This document shows positions 5,361 through 29,987 of a stretch of DNA of 45,593 nt, in pieces. The notes below the pieces were generated by a model. The model worked only from the letters and a program-made list of their open reading frames with translations, was not told where the DNA came from and did not search any database. How positions within the stretch are numbered: position 1 is the stretch's first letter; each line of letters opens with the position of its first letter. This DNA comes from Ruminococcus sp. (GTDB lineage: Bacteria; Bacillota; Clostridia; Oscillospirales; Acutalibacteraceae). A program made the position numbers and the translations under genes. The stretch spans positions 1 to 45,593 of the forward strand of contig JAMPDR010000009.1 in NCBI GenBank assembly GCA_023665555.1, written 5' to 3'.

Positions 5361-5364
5361 AAAT

Positions 5365-5402
5365 GTATCCACATAGGTTGTGTCCTATGTGGATATTTTT
5401 AT
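5365..5402 (+). terminator. Intrinsic terminator after mutS2
   Basis: ATCCACATAGG pairs with CCTATGTGGAT and is followed by TTTTT. It separates the era-recO-mutS2 region from the minus-strand genes. Confidence 0.85.
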
Positions 5403-5451
5403 CTGTGCGTAGGTACAAATTAACCCGCAATATCAGCAATACTCAAGTCAA

Positions 5452-7098: not shown

Positions 7099-7173
7099 AT
7101 AATTTACCATAGCCTTTCTGACTGCTAAAATCAAAGTTTCCCCAATTATGCCTTGCCGCAGTCTTACAAGGTC

Positions 7174-8574: not shown

Positions 8575-8596
8575 AAGTATAACAATTGGCTACAAT

Positions 8597-9238
8597 TCAT
8601 TCACTTTGCTTGTTGCTTTTAACCAGAAAATAAGCAAACACATAGGTCAGGATGCATACGCATTGCAAAATTCCGCATGGAAGAAATATGTATCCGAAGT
8701 TCTGCACCGGGAACGAGCAATATAGCGAACTTCCTATTGACCATATAATTGCCGAAACGCACATGCACTGATATCTGAACTTCCACCACATTGAGGCAAA
8801 AACAGTTATAACAATAGCTGCCGCCGGTGTTGCATATACGAATGAGCGCCAAGCAAAATCAGATGTAACAGATATATTTTTCAGAACGAAAAACACTATT
8901 GAGGCAATAAAATAAACACCTATAGTTGAAATAATCGGTATAAAAGTTTGCTTCGGCTGAGAAGAAAAAATACGCTCTTTTTTTGGCTTCTGTTCTTTGG
9001 TATTGTTTGATTCTTTAACAGTTTGTCCGAGAAGTTCGTCAGCCGATACATTGAAAAGTTCCGCTATTTTAAAGACTGTGTAGGTGTCCGGTATGCTTTC
9101 GCCGCGCTCCCATTTTGAAATGGCTTTGTCACTGTAGTTTAAGTCCTGCGCAAGCTGAATTTGGGTTATACCCTTTTCTCGACGCAGTCTGCAAATATTT
9201 TCGCCGAAGCTTTTTTTGAAATCGAGTTCATCAGTCAT
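8597..9238 (-). CDS. Xre-family HTH regulator with four-helix membrane domain
   Basis: This is a 213-residue protein. The ATG at 9238 lies seven bases after AAGGAAG; longer in-frame starts have no ribosome site. Residues 5-65 form an Xre/Cro helix-turn-helix (ENICRLRREKGITQIQLAQ, then YSDKAISKWERGESIPD). After a basic linker come four hydrophobic segments (from about residue 100 to 207). Membrane-bound HTH regulators of this kind in Firmicutes are thought to sense envelope or small-molecule cues; the signal and targets are not evident here. It is a single gene with its own terminator. Confidence 0.85.
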   Translation of the reverse strand: MTDELDFKKSFGENICRLRREKGITQIQLAQDLNYSDKAISKWERGESIPDTYTVFKIAELFNVSADELLGQTVKESNNTKEQKPKKERIFSSQPKQTFIPIISTIGVYFIASIVFFVLKNISVTSDFAWRSFVYATPAAAIVITVFASMWWKFRYQCMCVSAIIWSIGSSLYCSFPVQNFGYIFLPCGILQCVCILTYVFAYFLVKSNKQSE

Positions 9239-9410
9239 AAGTTCACTTCCTTGTACGATCCACAAGTTTGATATAATGAAACAATATTACTTCATGCCAA
9301 TCATTATACTGAAATGAGAATCGTTTTTCAACAAGTGTAACTTAAATTTAATAATTTATTTGGCGAGATATGTCGCACGATACTCCGCAGATTTTAATTA
9401 GGAACTTTTG

Positions 9411-9656
9411 AGAATGAGGAGTTTTTGGGAATGAGGAATTAGGAATGAGGAGTTAGGAACGAAGGTTGCGGGGAAAACAGCAATAACAGTTAGATTTTTA
9501 ACCGCAAAGATAGATAGCAATTATTTTATAACTTGTTATTATAATAAATCTCTAACTGCCGAATACAATTTAATTTCGCGGACAAATGATTTAAGATCGA
9601 TTACTGATTTATCCGCGACCATAACTCCTCACTCCTCATTCCTAATTCCTCATTAT
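9411..9656. repeat. Complete family B inverted-repeat element (MITE-like)
   Basis: About 245 bases are bounded by inverted ends of GAATGAGGAATTAGGAATG type on the left and TCCTAATTCCTCATT on the right. The interior contains ACCGCAAAGATAGATAG and TTTAATTTCGCGGAC. The same interior returns in reverse at 45431-45593 and in part at 35552-35776 and 13487-13610. There is no open frame of note. It ends four bases from the stop of the penicillin-binding protein gene. Confidence 0.75.
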
Positions 9657-9659
9657 CAA

Positions 9660-11249
9660 CTACTGTTGCATAACAATTCCCTCACAGATCTTCTTGAATA
9701 TCGGTGCGCAGTCTGAACTTCCGCTTTCGCCGTTTTCATTGAGAATAACAACAATATAATGCGGATTGTCCGCGGGATAAAATCCTGCAAACCATGTTCG
9801 GCATATCTCTGTACCGTCCTGATATATTCCGCTTTGCGCTGTGCCTGTTTTGCCTGCAAGCTTCACAACTGAACTTTTGGCTTTCTTTGCGTTGCCGTTT
9901 TCAACAACACTTGAAAGCATTTCCCGGATTGCTGTCACGGTCTTATCTGAAAATATTTTTCTCGTTTGCGGTGAGGATTCCGTTTTAACCAGTCCGCTTG
10001 AGTTTGCCATGCCGTATATCACTGTTGGTTTAACATAGTTGCCTGTTGCAAGCGCATGATATGCAATCAGCATTTGAATTGGTGTTGCAAGAAGTTTTCC
10101 CTGACCGAAAGAAAGGTTGGCTCTTTCACCCGGGTAAAGCAAATCGCTGTTTTGCGGAAGTGTTCCTTTGGCGGCGATAATTGACTGCGCAATTTCAGTT
10201 GTGCTTGAAAACCCCAAACTGCGGCATACTTCAAGCAGATAGTCGGCATCAATTTGTTCAAGTAGGTTGATGAAATAGGTGTTGCATGAATTTTCAAGAG
10301 CCTGTGTCATATTTTCCTTGCCGTGTTTTTTGTCGGAATAACACTTGAATGTTACATCGCCGACCGTAACAGAACCTTTACATTCATAGGTGAAATCTTT
10401 GCTTATTCCGCTTTCAAGCGCTGCGGCGGCAACAAGCGGCTTGAAAATTGAACCGACACTGTAGCTTTGCAGTGATTTATTGATAAGCGGCGAATTCTCC
10501 TCGTTAAGGCTTTGTGCAACATTGCTTTGGCTGTAGGTCGGAACACTTGCCATTGCGTGAATTTCGCCGGTGTCAACATGCATAACAAGTGCACATCCGG
10601 ATTTTATTTTGCTCTCACTCAACGCGGACTCAACCGTGCGCTGAATATTTTTGTCAATGGATAGCACAACTCCTGCCTTTGAGTTAAAGTTGTTATCATT
10701 GATAACCTTGTCAAGACCTATCAATGCGCGTCCTGTTGCATCGACCTCGAATGATACGCTAAGCGTTCCGCTGTTTTGTTTGAGATATTCATTATATGCC
10801 TTTTCAATTCCCGAAAGTCCGTTTTGACCCGTTGAATCAAGATATCCCACAAGGTGTACGGCGAGTCCGTTTTGGTTGTACCTGATGGGTATGGAAAAGG
10901 TGCGGATAAGTTCGCTGTTGTATTCACGGTCAGTTTCCAGTGCTAACGGCTTTCCGCTTGAAATTTTTTCTTGTGCTTCCTCTTCGCCGTATTTTTCACT
11001 CAGAAGGGTAAAAGCGGCAGATGAAGGTGTCACAGCGGCAATCAATCTTTCTGTTTCATCAACAAGCAGGTTGAGGTTGCGGTCATATATTTTACCGCGC
11101 GATGAACCGATATCAATTGTTTTTGTGTGAGCGGATTTTGCGGCATCCGAATACATCGTGTTATTTATATCAATAATTTTAAGTATAAGTCCCATGAAAC
11201 AAAACGTAATTGCAATGTAAAGGGCAGCAATTCTGCTTCTCATTTTCAT
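9660..11249 (-). CDS. Class B penicillin-binding protein (transpeptidase)
   Basis: The protein is about 529 residues. An in-frame ATG at 11282 would add 11 residues but has no ribosome site. An N-terminal membrane anchor (AALYIAITFCFMGLILKII) is followed by the dimerisation domain and a transpeptidase domain. The active-site SxxK reads SIFK at about residue 266, SxN reads SCN at about 320 and KTGT lies at about 462. It cross-links peptidoglycan at the outer membrane face. Class B enzymes of this length act in elongation, division or spore cortex formation. No shape-determining or division genes adjoin it, so the role is open; a SpoVD/PbpA-like function is possible. Confidence 0.9.
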   Translation of the reverse strand: MKMRSRIAALYIAITFCFMGLILKIIDINNTMYSDAAKSAHTKTIDIGSSRGKIYDRNLNLLVDETERLIAAVTPSSAAFTLLSEKYGEEEAQEKISSGKPLALETDREYNSELIRTFSIPIRYNQNGLAVHLVGYLDSTGQNGLSGIEKAYNEYLKQNSGTLSVSFEVDATGRALIGLDKVINDNNFNSKAGVVLSIDKNIQRTVESALSESKIKSGCALVMHVDTGEIHAMASVPTYSQSNVAQSLNEENSPLINKSLQSYSVGSIFKPLVAAAALESGISKDFTYECKGSVTVGDVTFKCYSDKKHGKENMTQALENSCNTYFINLLEQIDADYLLEVCRSLGFSSTTEIAQSIIAAKGTLPQNSDLLYPGERANLSFGQGKLLATPIQMLIAYHALATGNYVKPTVIYGMANSSGLVKTESSPQTRKIFSDKTVTAIREMLSSVVENGNAKKAKSSVVKLAGKTGTAQSGIYQDGTEICRTWFAGFYPADNPHYIVVILNENGESGSSDCAPIFKKICEGIVMQQ

Positions 11250-17269: not shown

Positions 17270-17360
17270 TAATAACGTAGGTGATACCGCAATAAGCGGC
17301 TACATCCTCAGTGGTTTAAATAACCGCCCCAGTTCACAAATCCGGGCGGTTATTTCTTTT
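17270..17360 (+). ncRNA. Putative small RNA, orphan relative of the antitoxin RNA at 43166
   Basis: The predicted RNA of about 85 bases starts near TAGGTGATACCGC and ends in a strong terminator (AATAACCGCCC with GGGCGGTTATT, 17319-17360). The 5' part CCGCAATAAGCGGC resembles the RNA at 43166-43256. No hydrophobic toxin frame is found on the opposite strand here, so it may be an orphan antitoxin or a stand-alone regulator. Confidence 0.4.
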
Positions 17361-17444
17361 TATTGTTTGTTTGGCAAAGTGCAATTACAACTTGTGCAAC
17401 TGCTTCTGAGGAAGTTTTTGTTAATACAGGGTGTGTTCTTATAC

Positions 17445-17475
17445 TTGACAAAAATAGAAATTTTTCATTTTATAT
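17445..17475 (+). promoter_or_regulatory. Possible promoter of cas6
   Basis: TTGACA at 17445-17450 and TTATAT at 17470-17475, with a long spacer of 19 bases. The transcript would carry a leader of about 200 bases. The region 17360-17620 holds no gene I can support. Confidence 0.4.
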
Positions 17476-17625
17476 AGACATTATTTTTCTTTTATGTTAA
17501 ACTAATTTAACAATATTATTAATTTTTGCACCTTTGTAAATCAGGATGAAAAAGTAATATTGGGATATCTATATATTTTTTTTAAGCACAGTTTTTTATT
17601 TATGGAGTTTTATTATAAAAAATAA

Positions 17626-17689
17626 AAGGAGAAAGCGGTACGGATGCTTAGATATGAGCGATAATCTGTATCGTATGACGATTACTATG
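17626..17689 (+). promoter_or_regulatory. Structured SD-stem-AUG leader of cas6
   Basis: AAGGAG at 17626-17631, three bases, then a 10-bp stem: GCGGTACGGA at 17635-17644 pairs with TCTGTATCGT at 17665-17674, with three G-U pairs. ATG follows immediately at 17675, and again at 17687. Compared with the ybaK leader the stem differs at three positions, all of which keep pairing, and both end GATAATC-YGTATCG-YATG-YGATTAC-YATG in pattern. Confidence 0.6.
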
Positions 17690-18406
17690 AAGTCAATTAC
17701 TGTTATGTTTTATCCGAAACATGATTTGGTTTTACCGCTGTCAAGGTTCGGCATTTTGCAAGGTGTTTTTTATAAATTGTTGTCGTTCGATCCTGCTTTA
17801 TCAACGGCAGTGCATGATGCCGCTAATGTTAATGAGCGGCAATTTAAATATTTTTGCTTTTCCGATATACAGGGAAGATTTAAGATCATAGGGAAAGACA
17901 TTGTTTACTCAGGAGATTTGACGTGGCAAATTCGTTCGGCAAATGATTATATTATCGATGTGATTTCCGCGGCATTGATGAAGCAACGAAAGTTTTCGAT
18001 AAATCACACTGATTGTTATTTGCTGGATCTTTGTGAAGAGCAGAGGAAGAGCATGTATTCTGTGAAGAATAAGATTGTTATGAATACACCAATCACCGTA
18101 TATGAAACAGATGCTGATGGTTACCGAATATTTTACAATCCGACACAGGAACGATTTTATACTGCGGTTGAGAATAATTTAAAAAGAAAGTACAATCAAT
18201 ACTGCGGCTTTGAACTGCCGGCTGATGTCTTGTTTAAAGCGGTATCGGAAAACAGTTTTAAAAAATGTGTTACGAGATATTCAGGCGGAATCATTGAGGC
18301 TTATTATGGTGAGTTTCTGCTTTCTGCACCTGAAAAGCTAATTGATTTTGCATATTATTGCGGCTTAGGTGCAAAGAATTCTCAGGGGTTCGGAACGATC
18401 CGTTGA
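17687..18406 (+). CDS. cas6: CRISPR-associated endoribonuclease Cas6
   Basis: Cas6 cuts the precursor crRNA within each repeat to leave the 8-base 5' tag. The protein is 239 residues from ATG 17687, which corresponds to the ybaK start in the shared leader; ATG 17654 or 17675 would add 11 or 4 residues. It begins SITVMFYPKHDLVLPLSRFG, a RAMP strand. It ends with the glycine-rich loop GLGAKNSQGFGTIR, diagnostic of the family. Candidate catalytic residues (a His or Tyr near the N terminus) cannot be fixed by eye. It is separated by 260 bases from the effector operon. Confidence 0.9.
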   Translation: MKSITVMFYPKHDLVLPLSRFGILQGVFYKLLSFDPALSTAVHDAANVNERQFKYFCFSDIQGRFKIIGKDIVYSGDLTWQIRSANDYIIDVISAALMKQRKFSINHTDCYLLDLCEEQRKSMYSVKNKIVMNTPITVYETDADGYRIFYNPTQERFYTAVENNLKRKYNQYCGFELPADVLFKAVSENSFKKCVTRYSGGIIEAYYGEFLLSAPEKLIDFAYYCGLGAKNSQGFGTIR

Positions 18407-18666: not shown

Positions 18667-20256
18667 ATGCTTCGTAGCTATCATACTTTTATCCTGCCAT
18701 TTGTATGGGAAGGGAACAACAAAAACAATTCATCTATGGATTCATTTGTAAAGCTTTTTCTCGATAATCCGAATTGGGAGTGTACCGATTGGCACACAGA
18801 ATATAGTATTCCGCAAAGAGAGTACGATCTTACCAATGACGAAACTCTGTTGTGTTATAAGGAGTATCAGTATTTTCATCCGTACGTCCGCAGGGCGATT
18901 TACGGGTTTGATTCAGGTATAATGACCAACTTTTCTTTCATGCCGATAAATGTAAGAAATAAGGCATGGTATTATATTACTAAAACAATACATGGCGAAA
19001 CAAGAAACTATAAACTCATGCTCAACGGAATAAGGCTTAAGATTTTCAATACCGGAATTGCGCAGTTTATAATGGAATGTGAAAACCACGGTGTTGATGC
19101 TGATGGAAAGCCTCAGACAAGTTTTGATGATATCAAGAACATCAATGACTATGGCAGAAGAATCTCTCTTCCTTTTATCAGTGTTGATAATCCGATGAGT
19201 TCAATTTGTGCTGACCGCTTGTCTGTTGAAATCCCGGATGTAGGAGTTTTTTCAGATGATTATGCCGAATATATGAAAGAATTAAAGCAAGAGCCGATGC
19301 TGGCGAATAATATTTCTTTGACTCACATGTGCGACTATATTAAGTCCATTCTCGGATACGGTTCAAAAGTTTCATTTACATCAAAGCAAACAAAAGATAC
19401 AAATAAGTGTAGTATATATCCTGCTCTTGATGACCGTATGTTTGTTGCATGCTATGTGTTTGATCAGGAAAGCGCTGATGCCATGACAGCGATTAAAGAC
19501 GGAAAATATGCATATCAGGCAAAAGCAGAACTTTCAAAAAGTTTATATGAATTTGTGTTCACTGACCCTGGTAAAGAATGTACCTGTCAATCTGAAGCAA
19601 TGCGCGCTGAACTTTTGGAAGAGCATATTTATAAGCGTTGGCTGGATTGCGGTTCTGTTTACTCAGTTGCTAATCAATCAATAAACTGCCTGACGAATTA
19701 TGATAATGTAAATAATCTGGACTCTTTCTTGACTCAATATATTCAAATGGCATGTTTGACACTTTGTCAAAGAGCAACGTTGATTCATTTTCAGCGAGAG
19801 GCCTCAATTCTGTCTTCTAACATCGAAAAACCGGGCAAGAGTATAGATAAAAACACAATTGCCAGACTCATGAATTTGCAGGAACGCTTTGTTGCATATC
19901 AAAGCCAGCTTTCGTTTAACGAGGCTACTCCGCAGGAACAGGGAATAGAAATATACGGTATGCTCCGTAATTTCATGTGTATTGAACAAGAAACGGAATC
20001 ACTCAGCGACAGACTTGAAAGTTTGGAAGCAGCGGCTGATACTAACCTTGATTACGGCTTTAATAAGATTGCATTGATTTTCACTTTTGTGTCATGCTTC
20101 CTTGCTGTTTTTCAGAATGTATTTTGTTTGTATGGGGAAGACGGCTTTTTCAGTTTGGATTCTACGGCTGTAAGAATAATAATCAGCCTTACCGCAATTG
20201 CGATACTTATATCGTTCTTCGGTGTACTTTTACTGTATAGGAGAAGAAAAAAATGA
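18667..20256 (+). CDS. corA: CorA-like membrane effector of the type III-B CRISPR system
   Basis: The protein has 529 residues. About 460 N-terminal residues form a soluble domain that ends in long helices (LMNLQERFVAYQSQLSF, then ETESLSDRLESLEAAADTNL). Two transmembrane helices follow at about 464-488 and 501-524, and a basic tail RRRKK. This layout is that of CorA-type channels, which are linked to some type III-B loci and are reported to respond to a second messenger made by Cas10. The GMN motif of CorA magnesium channels is missing; the loop reads LYGEDGFF. That supports a signalling rather than a transport role. The start follows AAAGGG. It overlaps the next gene by four bases, so it is part of the cmr operon. 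Confidence 0.72.
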   Translation: MLRSYHTFILPFVWEGNNKNNSSMDSFVKLFLDNPNWECTDWHTEYSIPQREYDLTNDETLLCYKEYQYFHPYVRRAIYGFDSGIMTNFSFMPINVRNKAWYYITKTIHGETRNYKLMLNGIRLKIFNTGIAQFIMECENHGVDADGKPQTSFDDIKNINDYGRRISLPFISVDNPMSSICADRLSVEIPDVGVFSDDYAEYMKELKQEPMLANNISLTHMCDYIKSILGYGSKVSFTSKQTKDTNKCSIYPALDDRMFVACYVFDQESADAMTAIKDGKYAYQAKAELSKSLYEFVFTDPGKECTCQSEAMRAELLEEHIYKRWLDCGSVYSVANQSINCLTNYDNVNNLDSFLTQYIQMACLTLCQRATLIHFQREASILSSNIEKPGKSIDKNTIARLMNLQERFVAYQSQLSFNEATPQEQGIEIYGMLRNFMCIEQETESLSDRLESLEAAADTNLDYGFNKIALIFTFVSCFLAVFQNVFCLYGEDGFFSLDSTAVRIIISLTAIAILISFFGVLLLYRRRKK

Positions 20257-20738
20257 TTAATGAAAAGAAGTTGAAAAGAATGCTTTGGCTAATGCGAATA
20301 AGAAAAATAGTTTGTCCTTTTACATTGAATAAATCAGCAAAGGTTGACTATTACTATCATCGCTTTATTTCTGAAATAGGATATGATAAATGGAAATACT
20401 ATGAACCTGATATAAAATCTGCATGGAATTCTGCAAGCAGAAGTTTTGGCAAAATGTATGGTTTAATAAAGGCTTGGAGCAAAACCGGGTTGCCGCTTTT
20501 GGATGAAAAAAGAAAGGAAATATACGAAAAGGAATGTAAGTATAATTATGAACTTAAATTGCATGAACTTGATGAAAAAATATCAGCGATAGAAGATAAG
20601 AAAGCGGCTGAACTTGCTGATAAGAATAATAAACTTGAAATGGCAAAACTGGATGCACAAATAGATAAAGAAACGTTTATTTCAGAAAGTTTTAAAAATG
20701 GCAATCAGGATATTGTGAAAATACTGCTGGAAAAATAG
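20253..20738 (+). CDS. Unknown 161-residue coiled-coil protein in the cmr operon
   Basis: I do not recognise this protein. It overlaps the corA-like gene by four bases (ATGA) and ends 14 bases before cmr1, so it is tightly tied to the operon. The first 35 residues are very basic (KKLKRMLWLMRIRKIV). The middle is aromatic (DYYYHRFISEIGYDKWKYYE), followed by FGKMYGLIKAWSKTGLPLL. Residues 88-140 form an E/K-rich coiled coil (YNYELKLHELDEKISAIEDK). There is no transmembrane helix, nuclease motif or RAMP loop. It might be an accessory partner of the CorA-like channel, or bind membrane or RNA through its basic end; both are guesses. Confidence 0.7.
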   Translation: MINEKKLKRMLWLMRIRKIVCPFTLNKSAKVDYYYHRFISEIGYDKWKYYEPDIKSAWNSASRSFGKMYGLIKAWSKTGLPLLDEKRKEIYEKECKYNYELKLHELDEKISAIEDKKAAELADKNNKLEMAKLDAQIDKETFISESFKNGNQDIVKILLEK

Positions 20739-20752
20739 GGAGGCAAAGAAAA

Positions 20753-22090
20753 ATGAGTGAAGTGGGTTTTGTAAAAAGCTACAAATTAGTGCAGCATACA
20801 CCGTTGATACATTTTCAACATGATCAGACGGGTGCAACACTTCGTGCAACGGAGGTGAAGCCGAAACTGGATGCGTTCATCATCGAAACATTAGGTGGCT
20901 CGAAAAAATTGCACGAGGAGCATAAAGATTGGTTCATTGATCCGCAAAAGGATGCATTGAAGTATAAGGTGGTTATTTCGGCAGAAAGTTCGTTAGAACC
21001 ACTACCGGAAGATGATTATTCGATTTATTTTGCAGAGGGAATGAACAAAGGCAATGGACAAACAAGCAAAATAATGTGTTCAAATATCGAACTTAAAATA
21101 ATATGCATGATAAACGAACTTCAAAAAGTGATAGACAATTGTATATCTGCATTTTTTCTGTGTCATAATTTTGGAACAAGACAGGATAAAGGATTTGGCT
21201 CGTTTGTGATTGTGAAAGAAAACTCGACTTTTAATGATGCTGCTGTTGTGTCTGCACTCAGCAAAAAATATCAGTCTGATACAATTTACTGTATAAAAAA
21301 CATTTCTAAGCCGTTTGTTGTCATAAAATATTTCTACTCGCTCTTAAAAAGCGGATATAATCCAAACTATGCGAAAGTTGACTATAAGGGCAATTTGATA
21401 ACAGAGAGTAAAAATGGAGGATATGAAAAATCTCTTTTGTTCAAATATTTCATGAAAAAAGATATCGGTAGTGAGAAGAAATATTTGAAGGAAATGAATG
21501 TTGCTCCTGCTATTGAAAACAAAAATTCAGATCATAGAAAGTATGATGAGTATTATTTTATAAGAGCATTATTAGGTGTGCCCGGAAGCTATTCGTTTAT
21601 CAGCGATGATCCCAAATTGTTTAAAAAAAACAGTAATGGTGGCTGGACCCCTGGAAGAGAAGAAATTACAGTAAGCAGAATAATTAAGAGCGATAAAATG
21701 GTTGATGATAAAAAAGCTGATCCATACTTTCGTTTCCCGTCACCAATTTTTTTTAAGGTTGTTAAGCATGGAAAAAATTATAGTATATTTTTTACCGGCA
21801 CCGAGTTGAATTTGCGAATTTGCAATCAAACTTTCAGATTTAAAAATAAAGGTCAAAAAAATAAAGAGGATAAGAAGTGGTATATGGCAGAAAATAGAAA
21901 TGATAAATCTATAGAGATAGTCACTCCGGATGAGTCCAAAGTTGATAAACAATTTGTTTTTGATTTCCTTAAATATGCAGTCGATGAACTTAATGCAAAT
22001 TTCAGTATACCCGGCAGATATATTGAACGAAATAGAAAAGATGATTTGGAATGCAAAATTATTGAATTCGAGGTGAAATGCAATGAGTAA
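20753..22090 (+). CDS. cmr1: Type III-B effector subunit Cmr1 (RAMP)
   Basis: The 445-residue protein opens SYKLVQHTPLIHFQHDQTGA, then TLRATEVKPKLDAFI, matching the first RAMP strand and the LRxxEIKxxL segment of Cmr1. A glycine-rich stretch, NFGTRQDKGFGSFVI, is at about residues 140-155. In Cmr complexes Cmr1 sits at the head with Cmr6 near the 3' end of the crRNA. The first of five cmr genes after the unknown 161-residue gene, it overlaps cmr2 by eight bases. It is diverged from classical Cmr1 and named from motif plus position. Confidence 0.78.
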   Translation: MSEVGFVKSYKLVQHTPLIHFQHDQTGATLRATEVKPKLDAFIIETLGGSKKLHEEHKDWFIDPQKDALKYKVVISAESSLEPLPEDDYSIYFAEGMNKGNGQTSKIMCSNIELKIICMINELQKVIDNCISAFFLCHNFGTRQDKGFGSFVIVKENSTFNDAAVVSALSKKYQSDTIYCIKNISKPFVVIKYFYSLLKSGYNPNYAKVDYKGNLITESKNGGYEKSLLFKYFMKKDIGSEKKYLKEMNVAPAIENKNSDHRKYDEYYFIRALLGVPGSYSFISDDPKLFKKNSNGGWTPGREEITVSRIIKSDKMVDDKKADPYFRFPSPIFFKVVKHGKNYSIFFTGTELNLRICNQTFRFKNKGQKNKEDKKWYMAENRNDKSIEIVTPDESKVDKQFVFDFLKYAVDELNANFSIPGRYIERNRKDDLECKIIEFEVKCNE

Positions 22091-23723
22091 ATCATATATC
22101 GGCATAACTATCGGTCCAATTATCGAAACGATGAATTTGGTTAGTTCGCCTGCCGCTTTGTGGGCATCGAGTTACATATTCTCTTCGGTCACAAAGGAAA
22201 TTTGTCACTTGCTTGTTACTGAATATGGATTGGACAGCAAGATGATAATTTCACCGTATTATGACGAAAACTCCGGGGAGTTTGACCGCGATGACGGTGT
22301 GGGTCTTTACCATGATAGAATTATATTTGTAAAACCGGATGATTTTGATATTAAGAGAATTAACGACATAAAGACCAAGGTTATTGTTCATCTCATGGAT
22401 ACGTTTTTTGCGGATGTTCAAGGCAAAGCTTTTAATGATTCACTGCCGAGAAACGAAGTAAAAGAATACCTCGAACATTACATAATGATTACAGCTGTGG
22501 CATTTTCAAATGAAGAAGAATCACAAAACGAATCTTTTAATCCTATTTTGAAAAGCGGAAAAATTCTGGATTGTATGGAACTTGCAAAACCGTTTGTTCC
22601 GACTGAAAACGAAAATTACATCTTGAAACGATTCACAGGCAGCAAGGAAACAAGTAAGAACGATTTGATCAAAGCCGTTGTTAAAGATAAGCTGGAAATT
22701 AAAAACTGGCAGTTGATTGATCCTGTTACAAAAAATATAAAAGATATCCCTTCTATTGCAGCTGTTGATAAACCAAGCGAGACAGATAATACTGATAACT
22801 CTGACGAATCCGACAAGGCAAAAAAGAAAACAGCAAGAAAAAAATATAACGACTATTGTGTGATTGTCCGTGCAGACGGTGACAATATAGGTCAGATTAT
22901 TTCCAATATATCAGTTAAATCAAACAAAGATGCTGATGTTGACGAGAAAATACGCGAATTCTCAAAAAAGTGTTTTGTATATTGCTCAAAGGCTGCACAG
23001 CTTGTCAAAGATTACGGCGGAATTACGATTTATTCAGGCGGTGACGATCTGTTAGCTATTCTTCCGTGTAAAAGCAAAGATAGGAACAAAACAGTCATGG
23101 ATTTTGCACTTGAGTTAAGCAATGAGTTTAGCGCAATTTTTTCAGCTGAGATAGATGAAATCAAGGAATACAATACGTCAACTACAGACCCTAAAAAGCT
23201 GAAAAAGGTGCCGTCACTTTCTGTTGCAGAATTAATTTTCTACAAGTCGTATCCGTTGTATGAAGCGATTGAACGTTCCGGTAAATTACTGTTTGAAACT
23301 GCTAAGAGCCAAAAGAACTGCCTTGCAATTTCCCTGCAAAAGCATGCGGGTCAGTCTGTTGAGTTAATTATTCCGAAGCCGGCTTTGAATAAGATTATTA
23401 CTTTGCAGAAAGAGATCATAAGCGATGCAGGAGATAAAAAAGACGACGTCCTGTTGTCTGCGCTGCAGAAAATTCTGTTATTTAAGGAACTGTTTGATGA
23501 AGTAAAACCAGATCAGATGAACAATCTTTTCCTCAATTGTTTTGATGCTGTGGCACATAATGATAATGCATTTGTACATAAAGTACTGCCGCAGTACTAT
23601 AATGAATTGCGTGAGGGAGAGTGTCAAATATTTGCAACAGAGAACATAAAAGGATATCCGGAATTGTTTTCAGCACTTCTGCGTTTGATGAAGTTCTTTG
23701 TTGAAAAAGGAGGAAGCGTATAA
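22083..23723 (+). CDS. cmr2: Cas10/Cmr2 with intact GGDD cyclase site and no HD domain
   Basis: Cas10 makes the nucleotide second messenger when the complex binds target RNA. The 546 residues are short for Cmr2, which is often over 800. The sequence starts at the first palm (IGPIIETMNLVSSPAALWASSY, shown in part, at 10-30), so the N-terminal HD DNase is absent. The second palm has VRADGDNIGQII at 262-273 and YSGGDDLLAIL at 317-327, with the GGDD metal site at 319-322. A low-complexity linker rich in D, S and K (about 229-255) stands where a zinc cluster is expected; only one cysteine is nearby. The system should therefore signal but not cut DNA itself. Confidence 0.92.
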   Translation: MSKSYIGITIGPIIETMNLVSSPAALWASSYIFSSVTKEICHLLVTEYGLDSKMIISPYYDENSGEFDRDDGVGLYHDRIIFVKPDDFDIKRINDIKTKVIVHLMDTFFADVQGKAFNDSLPRNEVKEYLEHYIMITAVAFSNEEESQNESFNPILKSGKILDCMELAKPFVPTENENYILKRFTGSKETSKNDLIKAVVKDKLEIKNWQLIDPVTKNIKDIPSIAAVDKPSETDNTDNSDESDKAKKKTARKKYNDYCVIVRADGDNIGQIISNISVKSNKDADVDEKIREFSKKCFVYCSKAAQLVKDYGGITIYSGGDDLLAILPCKSKDRNKTVMDFALELSNEFSAIFSAEIDEIKEYNTSTTDPKKLKKVPSLSVAELIFYKSYPLYEAIERSGKLLFETAKSQKNCLAISLQKHAGQSVELIIPKPALNKIITLQKEIISDAGDKKDDVLLSALQKILLFKELFDEVKPDQMNNLFLNCFDAVAHNDNAFVHKVLPQYYNELREGECQIFATENIKGYPELFSALLRLMKFFVEKGGSV

Positions 23724-23724
23724 T

Positions 23725-24870
23725 ATGGCAAAGTATAAAATTACATTTACTCCTGTTGAGCCGTGGTTTTTCGGCAATGAAAAAAGCTTTTCGTTTCCGG
23801 GACAGGAAAACGGAAACGCATACAGCAACCAGTACTTTATCAAAAGTGAAACAATGCCATCCCAAAGTACAATTCTCGGTGCTTTAAGATATTTGCTGAT
23901 TCCGACAAAAAAGCCGTTGCGTGAATATACTGAAAAAGACATGGCAGAAAACAGGGATTATATCGGCGAAGAAAGTTTTAATATTGACTATTCCCCGAAA
24001 GCAGATTCATCGGAACAAAAACAATCATTCGGTAAGATAAAAAGTATCTCGCCTGTGGTTATTATCAGAGATGATGAAATTTTGATTCCTGCGCCTATGG
24101 ATCATGTTGATAATGGTGAATCAGGTAAGACGGAACTTTACAGACCGTTTCAAGAATATTGCGTTGTGGAAGAAACACAGTTAGGAAAAAAACTTTATGT
24201 GAAGGACTATGATGCGAAAAAAGGTGTATTTAACGGCTTTGTTTCATTGAAAGATAAAGCGGTTTACAGTGAGGGCGATATCATAAATTCTGAAATCAGA
24301 GTCGGAAACCAGCGCTTCGCAGAAAACGAAGGATTCTTCAAAAAGGAATATAAATACTTTAGTCGGTCTGCGAAAGAACATTTAAATTACAGTTTTGCAG
24401 TATATGCTGACCTTGACATTCCGTCAGATGATGATTTTATCAAGCAAGAGCACACAGTTATGCTGGGTCAGGGCAAGTCTACTTTTGTTGTGAAACTTAC
24501 ACCTACAGACGAAGATTTAACTGAAAGTGTCAGAACGTTTTTACGCGACAGCTTGCCGAAAATATTCACCGATAGTGAGCGTGGAATCGGTAAATACAAT
24601 TATTACTATTGCCTGTCTGATACGCTTGTTTTGGGTGATCCGTATAAAGATACTCTTTTTGCGGTTACTCAAACCAGAGATTATCGCGCGTATATGACGC
24701 GTTCTTACGGCAAGATAAAAAAAGGCTCATGCCTGCACAGAATGATTAAGGCAGGAAGTGTTTTTGTTACTGACAGAGCAAAAAATGGTGATCTTTTTGC
24801 TGAAAACAAAAATGCTGAACAAATTGGATTTAACACATTAATAAAGATTGGAGAAAATGAAAATGAATAA
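23725..24870 (+). CDS. cmr3: Type III-B effector subunit Cmr3 (RAMP, crRNA 5' tag)
   Basis: The 381-residue RAMP protein binds the 5' tag end of the crRNA beside Cas10. It starts AKYKITFTPVEPWFFGNEKS and has the family sequence MPSQSTILGALRYLLI at about residues 44-59. A glycine-rich loop, DSERGIGKYNYYY, lies near 285. ATG 23725 follows AAGGAGG by 11 bases and begins just after the cmr2 stop; an upstream in-frame start in cmr2 looks spurious. It overlaps cmr4 by eight bases. Confidence 0.87.
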   Translation: MAKYKITFTPVEPWFFGNEKSFSFPGQENGNAYSNQYFIKSETMPSQSTILGALRYLLIPTKKPLREYTEKDMAENRDYIGEESFNIDYSPKADSSEQKQSFGKIKSISPVVIIRDDEILIPAPMDHVDNGESGKTELYRPFQEYCVVEETQLGKKLYVKDYDAKKGVFNGFVSLKDKAVYSEGDIINSEIRVGNQRFAENEGFFKKEYKYFSRSAKEHLNYSFAVYADLDIPSDDDFIKQEHTVMLGQGKSTFVVKLTPTDEDLTESVRTFLRDSLPKIFTDSERGIGKYNYYYCLSDTLVLGDPYKDTLFAVTQTRDYRAYMTRSYGKIKKGSCLHRMIKAGSVFVTDRAKNGDLFAENKNAEQIGFNTLIKIGENENE

Positions 24871-25633
24871 GAAACTTTTTAAAATTACTTGTCTTACTAA
24901 TTTGCACGTTGGCTCAGGTGACGTGAACTTTGATATTGTTGATAACGAAGTGGAAAAAGATCCCGTCACAAAATATCCGATGGTTCACGGTTCGGGAATC
25001 AAGGGTGCACTGCTTGCGGATGATAGCATATGTGACGAGAAATCAAGGTCATATGTATTCGGCGCGAAAGGCAACAACAGCACACCGTCTGAGGCGGGTG
25101 CATATAAATTCATGGACGCAAAGTTTCTTGCCAGACCGCTTAGAGTAGGCGGTAATTCCACACTTGCGTATATCCCTGTAACAACTGTTGCCGCAATTAA
25201 CGATTTTTTGTGGACAGCAAAAGAATTCGGCTTCGACCTTGGTTTGGGAGCGGACAAAATCAAAGATGTAGAATTCGGAGATAAAATGTTCGTTTCGAAT
25301 TCGGATAAGTGCGAAGACATTGAGGGCGAACCTGTTGGCGCATATAAAGGCAACGAAACAGAAAAAGCTATTCTGAGTTTTCTGTTGGGCGATAAATATG
25401 CAATTGTTAAGAGCTTCGATGATTATCGACTTCCGATCGTTGCAAGAAACAATATCGGTGAGAACCTTTGGTATGAGGAGTATGTTCCGCATAAGAGTAC
25501 TTTTTGGACGGTAATTTTGCACCCTGATAACGAATTCAAATTGAATTTTGATAAAGTAGCACAGCTTGGCGGTAATGCGTCAGTCGGATGCGGATTTGTT
25601 AAGTTTGATGAAATAACCAAGGACAACAAATAA
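24863..25633 (+). CDS. cmr4: Type III-B backbone subunit Cmr4 (target RNA cleavage)
   Basis: Cmr4 forms the repeated helical backbone along the crRNA and cuts target RNA every six bases. The 256 residues start KLFKITCLTNLHVGSGDVNF, followed by DPVTKYPMVHGSGIKGALLA, typical of Cmr4. The C terminus carries LGGNASVGCGFVKF, the RAMP glycine loop. Acidic residues near the first loop (GSGDVNFDIVDNEVE) are candidates for the catalytic aspartate. ATG 24863 was chosen for its spacing to GGAG. It overlaps cmr3. Confidence 0.9.
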   Translation: MNKKLFKITCLTNLHVGSGDVNFDIVDNEVEKDPVTKYPMVHGSGIKGALLADDSICDEKSRSYVFGAKGNNSTPSEAGAYKFMDAKFLARPLRVGGNSTLAYIPVTTVAAINDFLWTAKEFGFDLGLGADKIKDVEFGDKMFVSNSDKCEDIEGEPVGAYKGNETEKAILSFLLGDKYAIVKSFDDYRLPIVARNNIGENLWYEEYVPHKSTFWTVILHPDNEFKLNFDKVAQLGGNASVGCGFVKFDEITKDNK

Positions 25634-25655: not shown

Positions 25656-26111
25656 ATGAATAAAAAGAGGGTAAATTCTTATCTCAAGTATGCGATACTC
25701 ATGATGGAAAAATGCAAAATCGCTAACGATGAACGTGAAGTAAACAGTACATACAGGGCAAATATATCAGGCTTCGGTGCTGCTGTTCTTATGGGCAGTT
25801 TTAAGGCTGCTGTTGCGTTTTATGCTGAGGATGCTGAAAACAAGGGCGATGATAATAAGAATGACGATAACAAGGTGTCGCGTTCAAAATTGATTCAAGC
25901 GATGTATTACATTGTCAACTATCAAAGCGAAGAGGCCAAAATTAAAGAAGACTCATTTGACCCCACAAGCGCTAAAGAAATCTGTGGAAAAATTATAAAT
26001 ATTGATGACAAAGTTATAAACTGTGTGTGTGATCAATATATCGATGCGTCTATTGCACTTAAACTTGCGATGAGTGCTTTCGATTTGCAGAAGCCGAAAA
26101 CGGGGGCATAA
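25656..26111 (+). CDS. cmr5: Type III-B small subunit Cmr5
   Basis: Cmr5 is the small helical subunit that lies along the inner face of the complex, opposite Cmr4. The 151-residue protein is helical: it opens KKRVNSYLKYAILMMEKCKI, followed by STYRANISGFGAAVLMGSFKAAVAFY (shown in part). That glycine-containing helix is typical of Cmr5. A hydrophilic insert (GDDNKNDDNK) interrupts it, and the C terminus ends DASIALKLAMSAF. GGAGG precedes the ATG. It ends five bases before cmr6. Confidence 0.85.
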   Translation: MNKKRVNSYLKYAILMMEKCKIANDEREVNSTYRANISGFGAAVLMGSFKAAVAFYAEDAENKGDDNKNDDNKVSRSKLIQAMYYIVNYQSEEAKIKEDSFDPTSAKEICGKIINIDDKVINCVCDQYIDASIALKLAMSAFDLQKPKTGA

Positions 26112-26115
26112 AATA

Positions 26116-27213
26116 ATGGAAAATTTACAGCTGCTGTTTTATAAAACTTTATATAAAGAACTTAAATGCCAAGAAGACGGAAAATTGGTTATATCTGATA
26201 TTGAGTACAAGACTCGCAGATTACTTCAATCTAAATTTTATGAAGATGACTATCAAAAGCTTGATGATATTTTGAAGGCAGATGTCTTTTACATGAAAAC
26301 GCAGTATCCGGGTCTTTTGACAGGTTCGGGTTATGCTCACGGAACAAGTGCTGACGGTGAAACCAAAATCGGCTTTTCGTTTGACTATGTTACGGGTCAG
26401 CCGTATATTCCGGGCAGTTCCGTTAAAGGCGTTTTGAAAAACTATTTCAAGGTTCCTCAAATTTTTAATGCATTTTCCGGTGAGGACAATCAGCTTGATG
26501 AAGGACAGTTGAAGGCTTTGACAAAAACGTTGTTTGATGAGGGCGGTATATCTTTTCTTGATGCGGTTATTCTGCATGGCAACAAGGACGGATATGTTAT
26601 GGGCGAGGACTATATCACCCCTCATTCAGACCCGATGAAAAATCCGACTCCGCTCAAGTTTATCAAGGTATTGCCTGATGTTGTGTTTGAATTCCGATTC
26701 ATTTTTAACACTGCAAAAATCGATAATGAAATTATCACTAAAGAAAAACTTATCAAAATTTTTGTTGAGATTCTTTCTGCTTTCGGTGTGGGTGCAAAAA
26801 CCAACGTCGGATACGGTGTGCTGAATCATATCGCCGATACCGAAGCAAAAAATTATACATATCCAGACTCGAAAGCGGATAAAAATTATCAAAACCGCGG
26901 CAAGCAACAGCAATCTCGCGGCGGTGATAGATCGAAAGGCAAGAACTATTCATCAGGTTATAGAGGTATAGACCGAAATGTAAGTTTGGAGCAAGGCTCT
27001 GTTGTTGAATGTAGGATTACAGCTATCAAGTCATTTGGTGCATTTGCTGATATTATAGGTACACGCAAAAGCGGATTGATTCATATATCCGAGATCAGCT
27101 ATTCAAGAGTTGAGGATATTTATGATGTGTTAGCTGTTGGCGATGTGGTTAAAGCTAAAATTACATCACCGAGCGGTTCAGATAAAATTTCACTTTCAAT
27201 GAAGCGAGTGTAA
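26116..27213 (+). CDS. cmr6: Cmr6 fused to a C-terminal S1 RNA-binding domain
   Basis: The 365 residues hold two parts. Residues 1-240 are a Cmr6 RAMP subunit: TGSGYAHGTSADGETKIGFS and YIPGSSVKGVLKNYF early, and the glycine loop FGVGAKTNVGYGVL at 223-236. A flexible linker rich in Q, R, G and S (about 245-288) leads to an S1/OB-fold domain at 290-365, with VVECRITAIKSFGAFADI, GLIHISEIS, VGDVVKAKI and ISLSMKRV in canonical order. The domain is complete and in frame, without a stop. Ordinary Cmr6 lacks it. Cmr6 sits at the 3' end of the crRNA, so the S1 domain would be placed near the target RNA. ATG 26116 follows a GGGGG-containing site. Confidence 0.9.
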   Translation: MENLQLLFYKTLYKELKCQEDGKLVISDIEYKTRRLLQSKFYEDDYQKLDDILKADVFYMKTQYPGLLTGSGYAHGTSADGETKIGFSFDYVTGQPYIPGSSVKGVLKNYFKVPQIFNAFSGEDNQLDEGQLKALTKTLFDEGGISFLDAVILHGNKDGYVMGEDYITPHSDPMKNPTPLKFIKVLPDVVFEFRFIFNTAKIDNEIITKEKLIKIFVEILSAFGVGAKTNVGYGVLNHIADTEAKNYTYPDSKADKNYQNRGKQQQSRGGDRSKGKNYSSGYRGIDRNVSLEQGSVVECRITAIKSFGAFADIIGTRKSGLIHISEISYSRVEDIYDVLAVGDVVKAKITSPSGSDKISLSMKRV

Positions 27214-27251: not shown

Positions 27252-28488
27252 ATTTCCCGTTCCCAGTGGGGATTGGGACTCATGTTCTTTTAGTCTTTCT
27301 TTATAATGTAGTTGAAGGTTTCCTGTTCCCATTAGGGAATTGAGACACACCAATTATGGTGAGAAGGATGAGCGTAACAATTTGGTTTCCTGTTCCTATT
27401 AGGGAATTGAGACTACTATCTTTTAACTAACTTTTGGCAGTACATTAAAATTCTCGTTTCCTGTTCCTATTAGGGAATTGAGACGGGTTTTCTCTTTTTA
27501 GTTTTTTTCTTTTCTTCTACTAGTTTCCTGTTCCTATTAGGGAATTGAGACGTAACATCGTTCCACTCAGGATAGTTAGACTTAAGGTACTCCGTTTCCT
27601 GTTCCTATTAGGGAATTGAGACATTAGACGGAAGATATCTTTTACCAACATGGTTTTCCATTTATACTCACTGTTTCCTGTTCCTATTAGGGAATTGAGA
27701 CAAATTTTTCAGCATAATTATGCCCTCCATTTTCTTTTATTGTTGTTTACTGGTTTCCTGTTCCTATTAGGGAATTGAGACATAAGTCCGTTTTTTAAAG
27801 ATGCTTTCAGATCTTTTCTAAAATCTTCTTTTGTTTCCTGTTCCTATTAGGGAATTGAGACTCATTACTGTTTTCATTTTTTTAACCTCTCAATTTATTT
27901 AAATTGTTTCCTGTTCCTATTAGGGAATTGAGACAAAGATAAGCGAAGTAAATGTTTATAGTGTTTTTATATTCTTGTTTCCTGTTCCTATTAGGGAATT
28001 GAGACAATTATTCCTTATTAAGTTTTCCTTCACTTTTTGTGTTTCCTGTTCCTATTAGGGAATTGAGACTTTATACGGATTAGAATGAAAAATATTTAGA
28101 TATTCATTTATTTGAGTTTCCTGTTCCTATTAGGGAATTGAGACAAATGCCGTCGGGGTAAAGTTCTTTTGCTTTTTGTCTGATTTTGTTTATAAGTTTC
28201 CTGTTCCTATTAGGGAATTGAGACGATAATAAATTTTTGCCTAGCCATTGATACATTCCTGTTTCCTGTTCCTATTAGGGAATTGAGACTTATAGCAAAT
28301 TCTTGCTTATTTTTGTTAATTTCTAGTTTCCTGTTCCTATTAGGGAATTGAGACCCACACTCAGGATGAAGAATTGAATTGCGGTTGTTGACGTTTCCTG
28401 TTCCTATTAGGGAATTGAGACTCTTTAGGGTATAGATCATATTTCTTTTCAGTTGACATGTTAGCCTGTTTCCACTGGGGCAACATAC
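27252..28488 (+). CRISPR. CRISPR array 1: 16 intact 29-base repeats, decayed repeats at both ends
   Basis: The repeat begins GTTTCCTGTTCC and ends GGGAATTGAGAC, with a short inner palindrome (TTCCY-ATTA-GGGAA). Intact copies start at 27318, 27385, 27456, 27523, 27594, 27673, 27753, 27833, 27906, 27977, 28041, 28116, 28196, 28261, 28326 and 28393. Spacers are 35-51 bases. A degenerate copy at 27252-27279 and another at 28460-28488 flank it, giving 17 spacers in all. The ATTGAGAC end is the type III crRNA tag, so transcription is rightward. The array begins 39 bases after cmr6 with no leader of its own, so it may be read through from the cmr operon. Confidence 0.97.
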
Positions 28489-28643
28489 GCACAAAAAAGC
28501 CTCTCCAGAAAGGAGAGGTGCTCCAAGATGTCCGCAGGACATCGATACAGTTCAGCTGTTTGTATAATGTGAATTTTGATAAAAATTGATTTACACCTTG
28601 ACTATTTGCACGTTTTTAATGTAAAATTTGTTTGTAGGAATTA
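28489..28643 (+). promoter_or_regulatory. Leader of CRISPR array 2 with promoter
   Basis: TTGACT at 28598-28603 and TAAAAT at 28622-28627 (18-base spacing) place the RNA start about 10 bases before the first repeat. Upstream lie a GATGTCCGCAGGACATC palindrome and an AGCCTCTCC/GGAGAGG hairpin preceded by AAAAAA, which acts as a terminator only for the minus strand. The block is repeated at 28899-29086. Confidence 0.6.
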
Positions 28644-28898
28644 TATGCTTGTTCCCATTAGGAAATTGAGACAAAACCTTTTGCGGCTCATTATGTGCCT
28701 CTGGAAAGCGTTTTAACTGTTTCCTGTTCCCATTAGGGAATTGAGACTTGTGCCACTTTGGCTGTAGTTACTTGCTTAGTAGTTTTACAAGAAAGATGCT
28801 CGTTTCCTGTTCCTATTAGGGAATTGAGACGCAATCAAATTGCCATTTTATCATGCATTGTACCATATAGTTAGCCTGTTCCCACTGGGAAAATATAC
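28644..28898 (+). CRISPR. CRISPR array 2: three repeats plus a decayed terminal repeat
   Basis: Repeats at 28644-28672 (5' half altered), 28719-28747 and 28802-28830; a decayed one at 28870-28898 (GTTAGCCTGTTCCCACTGGG and on). There are three spacers of 39-54 bases. The first repeat being worn on its 5' side next to the leader is unusual and is shared with array 3. Confidence 0.9.
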
Positions 28899-29086
28899 TC
28901 GCACAAAAAAGCCTCTCCTGAAAGGAGAGGTGGCAAAAATGCTTGCATTTTTGACGGAGGGTGCTCCAAGATGTCCGCAGGACATCGATACAGTTCAGCT
29001 GTTTGTATGATGTGAATTTTGATAAAAATTGATTTACACCTTGACTATTTGTACGTTCTTAATGTAAAATTTGTTTGTAGGAATTA
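28899..29086 (+). promoter_or_regulatory. Duplicated leader, serving CRISPR array 3
   Basis: This is nearly identical to 28489-28643 apart from an insert of about 31 bases holding a CAAAAATG/CATTTTTG hairpin. Promoter: TTGACT at 29041-29046 and TAAAAT at 29065-29070. The insert resembles 34780-34815, so it is a dispersed repeat. Confidence 0.6.
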
Positions 29087-29318
29087 TATGCTTATTCCCA
29101 TTAGGGAATTGAGACAGACAGAACTCGAGCAATGGGCGGATATCTGTGTTTTCGTTAGCTGTTCCCATTAGGGAATTGAGACAAAACATCCTTTCTATTC
29201 GGCTAGGCCGTTATTTTACAGTTTCCTGTTCCCATTAGGGAATTAATACAAGCTTTGTCTTTCATTTGAATACTTCCTTTCTTGTATAAAGGTTGCCTGT
29301 TCCAACCGGGAAAATATC
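29087..29318 (+). CRISPR. CRISPR array 3: three repeats plus a decayed terminal repeat
   Basis: Repeats at 29087-29115, 29154-29182 and 29221-29249; the last ends AATTAATAC instead of AATTGAGAC. A strongly decayed copy lies at 29290-29318. There are three spacers of 38-40 bases. The array uses the CCCATTAG repeat variant throughout. Confidence 0.88.
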
Positions 29319-29541
29319 ATCAATTAAAAAACTATGCAAATGGACAGAAATCAAGGGCGGCCATTGACCGCCCCTACGAAAAAAATTCTATTTAGCAATA
29401 ATCATCTTAAGCCATTAAATAGGTATAAAATGAATTATTTAAATTGGAGATAGACCTGTTTTTTTATGTTGTTTACCTTTTAATTTTTTTGACATTGCGA
29501 TATATTGTATTATGAATATAGGCTGTATACAATATGTTCTT
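29319..29541 (+). promoter_or_regulatory. Region between arrays 3 and 4, with a different leader
   Basis: There is no gene here. GGGCGG/CCGCCC form a hairpin near 29355-29373. TTGACA at 29489-29494 with an AT-rich -10 region could drive array 4. ATATTGTAT (29502-29510) and ATACAATAT (29527-29535) form a perfect inverted repeat just before the first repeat, possibly an operator. The sequence is unrelated to the duplicated leader of arrays 2 and 3. Confidence 0.45.
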
Positions 29542-29987
29542 GTTTCCTGTTCCTATTAGGGAATTGAGACTGCAAGATTTCTTTTGACAATGTTTTGATG
29601 ACTGTGCAAGCGTTTCCTGTTCCTATTAGGGAATTGAGACAATCTTAAGCAATTGCCAGGGATGACGAGTTGATTGAGTTTCCTGTTCCTATTAGGGAAT
29701 TGAGACAAATTTTCAATGTTCATCATAATTGTTCCTCCTAAAATTGGTTTCCTGTTCCTATTAGGGAATTGAGACACAAGCATTCTTGCCCATTACATTC
29801 CTTCGAATATGGACAAGTAAAGTTTCCTGTTCCTATTAGGGAATTGAGACTTAAATGTCCTTTCTGATCTAGTGATAATTTTTGCATTTTAGTTTCCTGT
29901 TCCCATTAGGGAATTGAGACGATTGTCCAGTTATTATGTGATTAATGCTTTAATATATGTTTCCTGTTCCCATTAGGGAATTAACAC
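29542..29987 (+). CRISPR. CRISPR array 4: seven repeats, last one degenerate
   Basis: Repeats start at 29542, 29612, 29678, 29747, 29822, 29892 and 29959. The last ends AATTAACAC, the usual sign of the leader-distal end, and confirms rightward reading. There are six spacers of 37-46 bases. The first five repeats carry CCTATTAG and the last two CCCATTAG. Confidence 0.97.

Follow-up and report, generated by a model that had tools for sequence, protein, structure and literature searches.

Spacers of type III CRISPR-Cas systems are reported to prefer the coding strand (PMC8482600), and the source of spacers linked to reverse transcriptases (RTs) has been called enigmatic (PMC5513706). Among the described systems closest to the locus studied here is the RT-Cas1 type III-B system of Marinomonas mediterranea. 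In vitro, its RT-Cas1/Cas2 is reported to form snap-back products with RNA as well as DNA as template, with a 2-nt pairing in the RNA-template reaction, and the authors regard a snap-back route for spacer acquisition as not completely excludable (PMC11014452). The Streptococcus thermophilus type III-A system is RT-free, and a review describes its new spacers from the host genome as enriched on the coding strand roughly 10–50 bp downstream of start codons (PMC9048733); a start-proximal bias as such has already been reported, for type III-A. In the CorA/SAM-AMP type III-B systems of Bacteroides fragilis and Clostridium botulinum, a run of cas10, cmr1, cmr3–cmr6, cas6 and a CorA-like gene is described (PMC12255297).

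The clostridial locus that we describe here has a gene run like that of the CorA/SAM-AMP systems. With M. mediterranea it shares a Cmr-type effector and spacers antisense to mRNA, and with S. thermophilus a type III system that is coding-strand-specific with spacers near start codons; as in type III systems generally, its spacers can pair with transcripts.

Results

The window, by which we mean the whole stretch of DNA analysed, is one 45.6-kb contig of a 2.6-Mb Ruminococcus sp. assembly (120 contigs, 98.3% complete). By match titles, the closest relatives of its Cas10 are from Ruminococcus and other Clostridia, and spore genes lie downstream of the array. A run of genes on the + strand begins with cas6 (17654–18406; Pfam Cas_Cas6_C, 3.1e-27; PADLOC Cas6b) and a gene for a CorA-like membrane effector (18667–20256), which matches no family in Pfam or NCBIfam and lies beside the cmr genes as in CorA/SAM-AMP type III-B systems (PADLOC CorA, 2.1e-72). 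These are followed by a 161-aa ORF without a family in Pfam, NCBIfam or PADLOC, and then by cmr1 (20753–22090; PADLOC Cmr1, 3.9e-68), cas10/cmr2 (22083–23723; NCBIfam TIGR02577, above cut-off), cmr3 (23698–24870) and cmr4 (24848–25633), both recognised by NCBIfam and PADLOC, cmr5 (25656–26111; PADLOC, 5.4e-23), and a cmr6 that encodes a C-terminal S1 RNA-binding domain at residues 305–377 (26074–27213; NCBIfam). General Pfam, NCBIfam and PADLOC scans recognised no NrN phosphodiesterase or SAM-AMP lyase among the neighbouring genes. With Cas10/Cmr2, Cmr1 and Cmr3–Cmr6 present, the system is a type III-B (Cmr) CRISPR-Cas system, and it also has a Cas6 and an adjoining array with a type III repeat.

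The array (27252–29987) follows the operon and consists of four tandem sub-arrays on the + strand, with 29 spacers of 35–54 nt between 27281 and 29958. Sub-array 1 (27252–28488) has 17 spacers and altered repeats at both ends. Sub-arrays 2 (28644–28899) and 3 (29087–29320) have three spacers each, and sub-array 4 (29542–29987) has six. Sub-arrays 2 and 3 are each preceded by a leader-like block that carries a promoter-like site on the + strand, and the two blocks are nearly identical: the first (28517–28643, site at 28598–28627) is 97% alike to 28960–29116 over 157 nt, and the second copy spans 28960–29086 (site at 29041–29070). The repeat, which is absent from 33 other genomes of the genus, ends in ATTGAGAC, the usual type III tag. 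The crRNAs thus carry the + strand sequence, and a spacer can pair with RNA that corresponds to its reverse complement.

A first-pass annotation of this DNA had named seven spacers whose reverse complements hold a Shine-Dalgarno site and an ATG, and had put the total at 7–8 of 29 against about one by chance. We scored all spacers with a fixed rule (AGGA, GGAG or GAGG, a gap of 4–10 nt, then ATG), which scores only spacers that hold both elements; spacers wholly downstream of a start need protospacers to score. On the strand antisense to the crRNA the rule recovered the same seven spacers, and on the crRNA strand none of the 29, in agreement with the antisense orientation that had been proposed. 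All seven lie on the minus strand, and in each the frame after the ATG is open to the spacer end. They are 27702–27752 (ATG 14 nt from the RNA 3' end), 27862–27905 (16 nt), 28225–28260 (24 nt), 28673–28718 (19 nt), 29250–29291 (16 nt), 29707–29746 (20 or 17 nt) and 29776–29821 (18 nt). Spacer 28422–28459 does begin at an antisense ATG on the minus strand, as annotated; it has no Shine-Dalgarno site and stands outside the count.

The excess over chance also held up. Dinucleotide shuffles gave a mean of 0.72 matches, and 0 of 2000 reached seven. Shuffles are a weak null, and the coding strands of phages a harder one: 6.0, 4.7 and 3.9% of spacer-length windows on the gene-sense strands of three phages match the rule (mean 4.9%), from which about 1.4 of 29 are expected (P = 0.0004 for the seven observed; P = 0.0014 with the highest phage rate). 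The significance depends on the motif rule, since it weakens to P = 0.009 with a wider 4-mer set (7/29) and to P = 0.041 with a 5-mer set allowing ATG, GTG or TTG (5/29).

Relatives of the window's Cas10 were found in 6 of 398 genomes of the family, its own genome counted, and at 24 loci of a species collection. We assembled a related set from the arrays of these relatives, from Streptococcus genomes with one common repeat (found in 9 of 284 genomes) and from two more RT-Cas1 loci; with the window's own it holds 250 unique spacers, identical spacers being counted once. The records L042/L070, L043/L075 and L045/L082 were taken as the same and each used once, and the contigs L095 and L096 come from a single genome. 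The rule is matched by 35 of the 250 antisense, against five sense. The control set was drawn from loci whose Cas1 match lacks the RT part (35 of the 38 retrieved); its arrays are presumably type I-B by the look of their repeats, some may be type III, and 130 of 4248 strands match the rule. The related arrays exceed the control without the window (28/221, P = 3e-10) and also without both the window and the Streptococcus locus L097 (21/206, P = 1.8e-6), the latter rate being about twice that of phage coding strands.

The signal is unevenly spread. It is strong in the window (7/29) and in L097, where seven of 15 spacers match, and moderate in the other clostridial arrays (8/42, P = 9e-4). It does not reach significance among nine kindred Streptococcus loci where no full RT-Cas1 is in view (10/131, P = 0.11), nor in L118, L119 and L080, three other loci with an RT in view (3/33, P = 0.22; 2/16 in L118 and 1/11 in L119). 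The arrays of L072, L074, L081 and L090 have differing repeats and an ambiguous orientation and were left out of the 250; none of their 22 spacers matches on either strand, and with them the count becomes 35/272. We conclude that the start-site pattern in the window's array is confirmed and extends beyond this array, but unevenly.

The pattern could arise by chance if the spacers had been supplied by a handful of elements densely packed with very small genes that have strong Shine-Dalgarno sites. Three of the seven start-site spacers of L097 have one leader motif in common, as if from one element, and the sensitivity to the motif rule, the roughly twofold rate once the window and L097 are removed and the lack of matches in the four excluded loci all agree with this explanation. 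It would require, however, a gene every 120 nt in the sources of the window's spacers, or every 62 nt in those of L097, and gene density leaves unexplained where the spacers end (see below). We therefore consider gene-dense sources very unlikely.

We compared the ends of the spacers with those of random phage windows, in a test devised after the data had been seen. The RNA 3' end falls within 12 nt of the A of the ATG in three of 34 spacers with an open start site, against 34.5% of the random windows (P = 6e-4), and in none of 14 from the window and L097 (P = 0.003). Spacers that end between the Shine-Dalgarno site and the start are not enriched (8/250, or 3.2%, against 4.3%). Control spacers that match the rule deviate from the phage null in the opposite direction, with 50% within 12 nt; control spacers are shorter. 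The codon periodicity of the spacer ends, judged by eye, gave no clear pattern and was not used. Thus, the spacers sit on translation initiation regions, in most cases from the Shine-Dalgarno site to at least 13 nt past the ATG, and the fragments in excess are those that include this region in full. The 3' edge of an initiating ribosome lies at about +15. The excess of whole regions fits shielding by such ribosomes, as we infer it, better than a general proximity to where genes begin.

The same positions could be reached if acquisition were even and selection kept those crRNAs that block translation at initiation regions or find unstructured RNA there. Strong strand bias in an RT-free type III system is reported to arise by selection (PMC7515739), and of six start-site spacers that we folded, three have no or almost no RNA structure. 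Among the same six, however, 29776–29821 folds strongly (z −3.5) and stems occur in two others. Spacers that cover the region in part would be expected to block initiation as well, yet they show no enrichment. Selection on evenly acquired spacers appears unlikely to us, also in view of one spacer of host origin.

This spacer, 27623–27672 (minus strand), is the only one of the window that could be traced. It matches contig C109, which shares the window's bin and is on that ground taken to be from the organism itself. The match is split into a piece of 36 nt (97%) and, directly next to it, one of 16 nt (100%) in inverted orientation. The target is the start of a gene whose product, judged by eye, is a PrkC-like PASTA Ser/Thr kinase (frame from L067 3523, minus strand), to which the spacer is antisense. 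A snap-back model accounts for its structure: the sense strand ends in GAAGATAT and folds back to pair its terminal AT with the one that follows GGTAAAAG, and extension proceeds to 11 nt before the ATG. The modelled product equals the spacer at 49 of 50 bases. The first-pass annotation had not listed this spacer, which covers the host start codon and is a further start-site spacer.

Where III-B interference is functional, selection is reported to act against antisense spacers of host origin (PMC5576922). In 27623–27672 the first 16 nt no longer pair with the kinase mRNA, a possible reason for the tolerance of an antisense spacer against the host itself. Its origin at a host gene start and its snap-back structure favour acquisition over selection alone, which leaves a host mRNA-start spacer with a snap-back loop unexplained.

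In L045 and L079 a related Cmr/CorA operon has a full-length RT-Cas1 fusion beside it; in L080 it is the RT part. L097 is the only Streptococcus locus with a full-length RT-Cas1 frame in view (639 codons; its array starts at about 8581). L085, L086, L092 and L096 keep pieces of Cas1, and the remaining Streptococcus loci have no match in the stretch examined. The difference between L097 (7/15) and its nine kindred loci (10/131) is significant (Fisher's exact test, P = 3e-4) and rests on one array. The RT of L097 has YADN at the YxDD motif; the motif is YCDD in L118 and L119. In the other clostridial arrays with the signal, no RT-Cas1 lies in the stretch examined. The window's own genome gave no match to PF01867 or PF00078, in searches that were positive in 9 of 14 and 3 of 14 control genomes, respectively, and a protein search with RT-Cas1 found no such gene in the assembly. 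The adaptation genes may thus have disappeared from the genome, be encoded in sequence that the assembly does not include or work from a different replicon.

A genome without an RT agrees with an alternative in which single-stranded DNA is captured: Cas1-Cas2 would take the coding strand displaced by transcription near gene starts, a route already put forward for the S. thermophilus III-A system, and a DNA polymerase would extend the folded 3' end of one fragment. The coding-strand enrichment of the RT-free type III-A system points the same way (PMC9048733), as does snap-back synthesis on DNA templates (PMC11014452). The III-A bias lies downstream of the ATG, however, whereas here the Shine-Dalgarno site and the ATG are inside the spacers, and in the nine Streptococcus loci where no full RT-Cas1 is in view the excess is not significant. 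We hold capture of single-stranded DNA to be improbable.

The first-pass annotation had proposed matching the spacers to phage, plasmid and metagenome sequences, and this mapping gave no convincing match for the window's spacers. Against phages, with E values up to 10 allowed, it returned 31 records, the best at E 0.02, and against plasmids 47 records, none of either convincing. Scans of viral contigs covered six of the 29 spacers, with no match to a degenerate core of 28422–28459 or to short cores, searched as exact strings, of the rule-matching spacers 27702–27752, 28673–28718, 29250–29291, 29707–29746 and 29776–29821. Two patterns from L097 start-site spacers gave no match either. Weak matches in genomes of the family (E up to 0.05) were judged to be low-complexity chance and were not used, the host match excepted.

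Outside the window, 19 of the 28 rule-matching spacers and three start sites found by eye gave one phage record (E 0.09). From 60 Streptococcus spacers we obtained one phage record with the first 28 and 219 with the other 32, of which the best 60 were listed. A start-site spacer of L084 (GGGAG-CGTTT-ATG) matches a saliva phage over 36 nt at 91.7%. The aligned stretch starts at the second base of the terminase gene as annotated, with TTG in the phage and ATG in the spacer, so that this site at least is a true gene start. L093 carries a variant of the same spacer. Among the matches listed, the protospacers of L086_7 and L087_12 are well inside genes.

Discussion

The first-pass annotation suggested acquisition from, or selection for, mRNA 5' ends. 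Enrichment, strand and recurrence in other arrays, the last uneven, speak in part for this proposal; the sites established are translation initiation regions, which may or may not be mRNA 5' ends as well. In our best reading, at about even odds (0.5), a good share of the spacers derives from mRNA: RT-Cas1-type enzymes, now absent from the assembly, took up pieces of it, preferably those that span translation initiation regions. RNases would cut mRNA, and fragments holding an initiating ribosome, from the Shine-Dalgarno site to about +15, would survive best. An RT-Cas1-type machine, as suggested by the related loci and the snap-back spacer, would copy fragments of 35–55 nt into DNA and insert them, sometimes by snap-back self-priming. 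In type III systems a crRNA antisense to mRNA enables recognition of the transcript, here presumably by the Cmr complex. With the adaptation genes absent from the assembly, the array would be a frozen record or be fed from elsewhere.

Capture of mRNA by RT-Cas1-type enzymes is weakened by the lack of Cas1 and RT in the window's own genome, the 3/33 in the three RT loci, the YADN of L097 and the fact that snap-back also works on DNA. A further counterpoint is the uniform distribution along genes reported for new spacers of the Marinomonas RT-Cas1 (PMC11014452). A bolder version, rather doubtful in our view yet worth stating, holds that such arrays are a natural ribosome-profiling record: mRNA protected by initiating ribosomes, host mRNA included, would pass through RT-Cas1 into spacers, and snap-back copies of host mRNA would persist, since their loop impairs pairing at the crRNA 5' end.

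The data suggest that memories of this RNA-recognising kind can be made from mRNA. A bias to translation starts would then tell which RNA pool feeds the adaptation machine, and the rates of start sites on the two spacer strands would offer a test for RNA-derived memory that needs sequence only and no known phage. In the accessible portions of the open-access literature we found no report of natural arrays centred on the Shine-Dalgarno site and start codon.

Compared with the CorA/SAM-AMP systems (PMC12255297), the general scans recognised no NrN phosphodiesterase or SAM-AMP lyase near the window's operon, and the family-less ORF lies between the CorA gene and cmr1. Its spacers go beyond the strand preference of type III systems in their position at translation starts (PMC8482600). 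Unlike in S. thermophilus III-A, the Shine-Dalgarno site and ATG are inside the spacer, and the arrays are natural ones. The likeness to M. mediterranea extends to RT-Cas1 fusions beside operons related to the window's. The window's assembly differs in having no RT-Cas1, and its spacers crowd on translation starts, whereas those of M. mediterranea are described as uniform along genes. The product of the M. mediterranea RT-Cas1/Cas2 in vitro resembles spacer 27623–27672, which would be a natural trace of the reaction shown there (PMC11014452).

Array organization and spacer content

The CRISPR array of the window is made up of four sub-arrays whose terminal repeats are altered (junction region 28460-29541). 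At two of the sub-array junctions there is a leader-like block of 157 nt, the two copies being 97% alike, and these two junctions also have terminator-like hairpins on the minus strand, at 28500-28518 and 28912-28930.

In L097, a Streptococcus locus (8581-9670), three of the seven start-site spacers, in which the antisense strand reads a Shine-Dalgarno core, a 4-10 nt gap and ATG, open with the same bases, AGGAAAGAAGGAAAC, and the coding sequences that follow differ among the three. It is as if a leader were common to several genes of a single element from which these three spacers came. In L085, a second Streptococcus locus, a Cas1 without an RT part is split into two frames (17270-18040) and adjoins an array with the repeat common to the Streptococcus loci.

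Gene content of the Cmr/CorA loci

The window's Cmr6 (26074-27213) carries an S1 RNA-binding domain at its C-terminus, a fusion not found in any other locus examined by tblastn of related loci. The sole match to the S1 part among these loci lies at a separate place in L069, another comparison stretch. In L045, which has a related Cmr/CorA operon, the Cmr6 and CorA matches both fall within a single 838-aa frame (4713-7229), which is a predicted Cmr6-CorA fusion.

Between the window's CorA-like gene and cmr1 lies a 161-aa ORF (20253-20738) with no family in Pfam, NCBIfam or PADLOC and no relative among the loci examined. The ORF occupies a place near which other CorA systems have the NrN phosphodiesterase or a SAM-AMP lyase.
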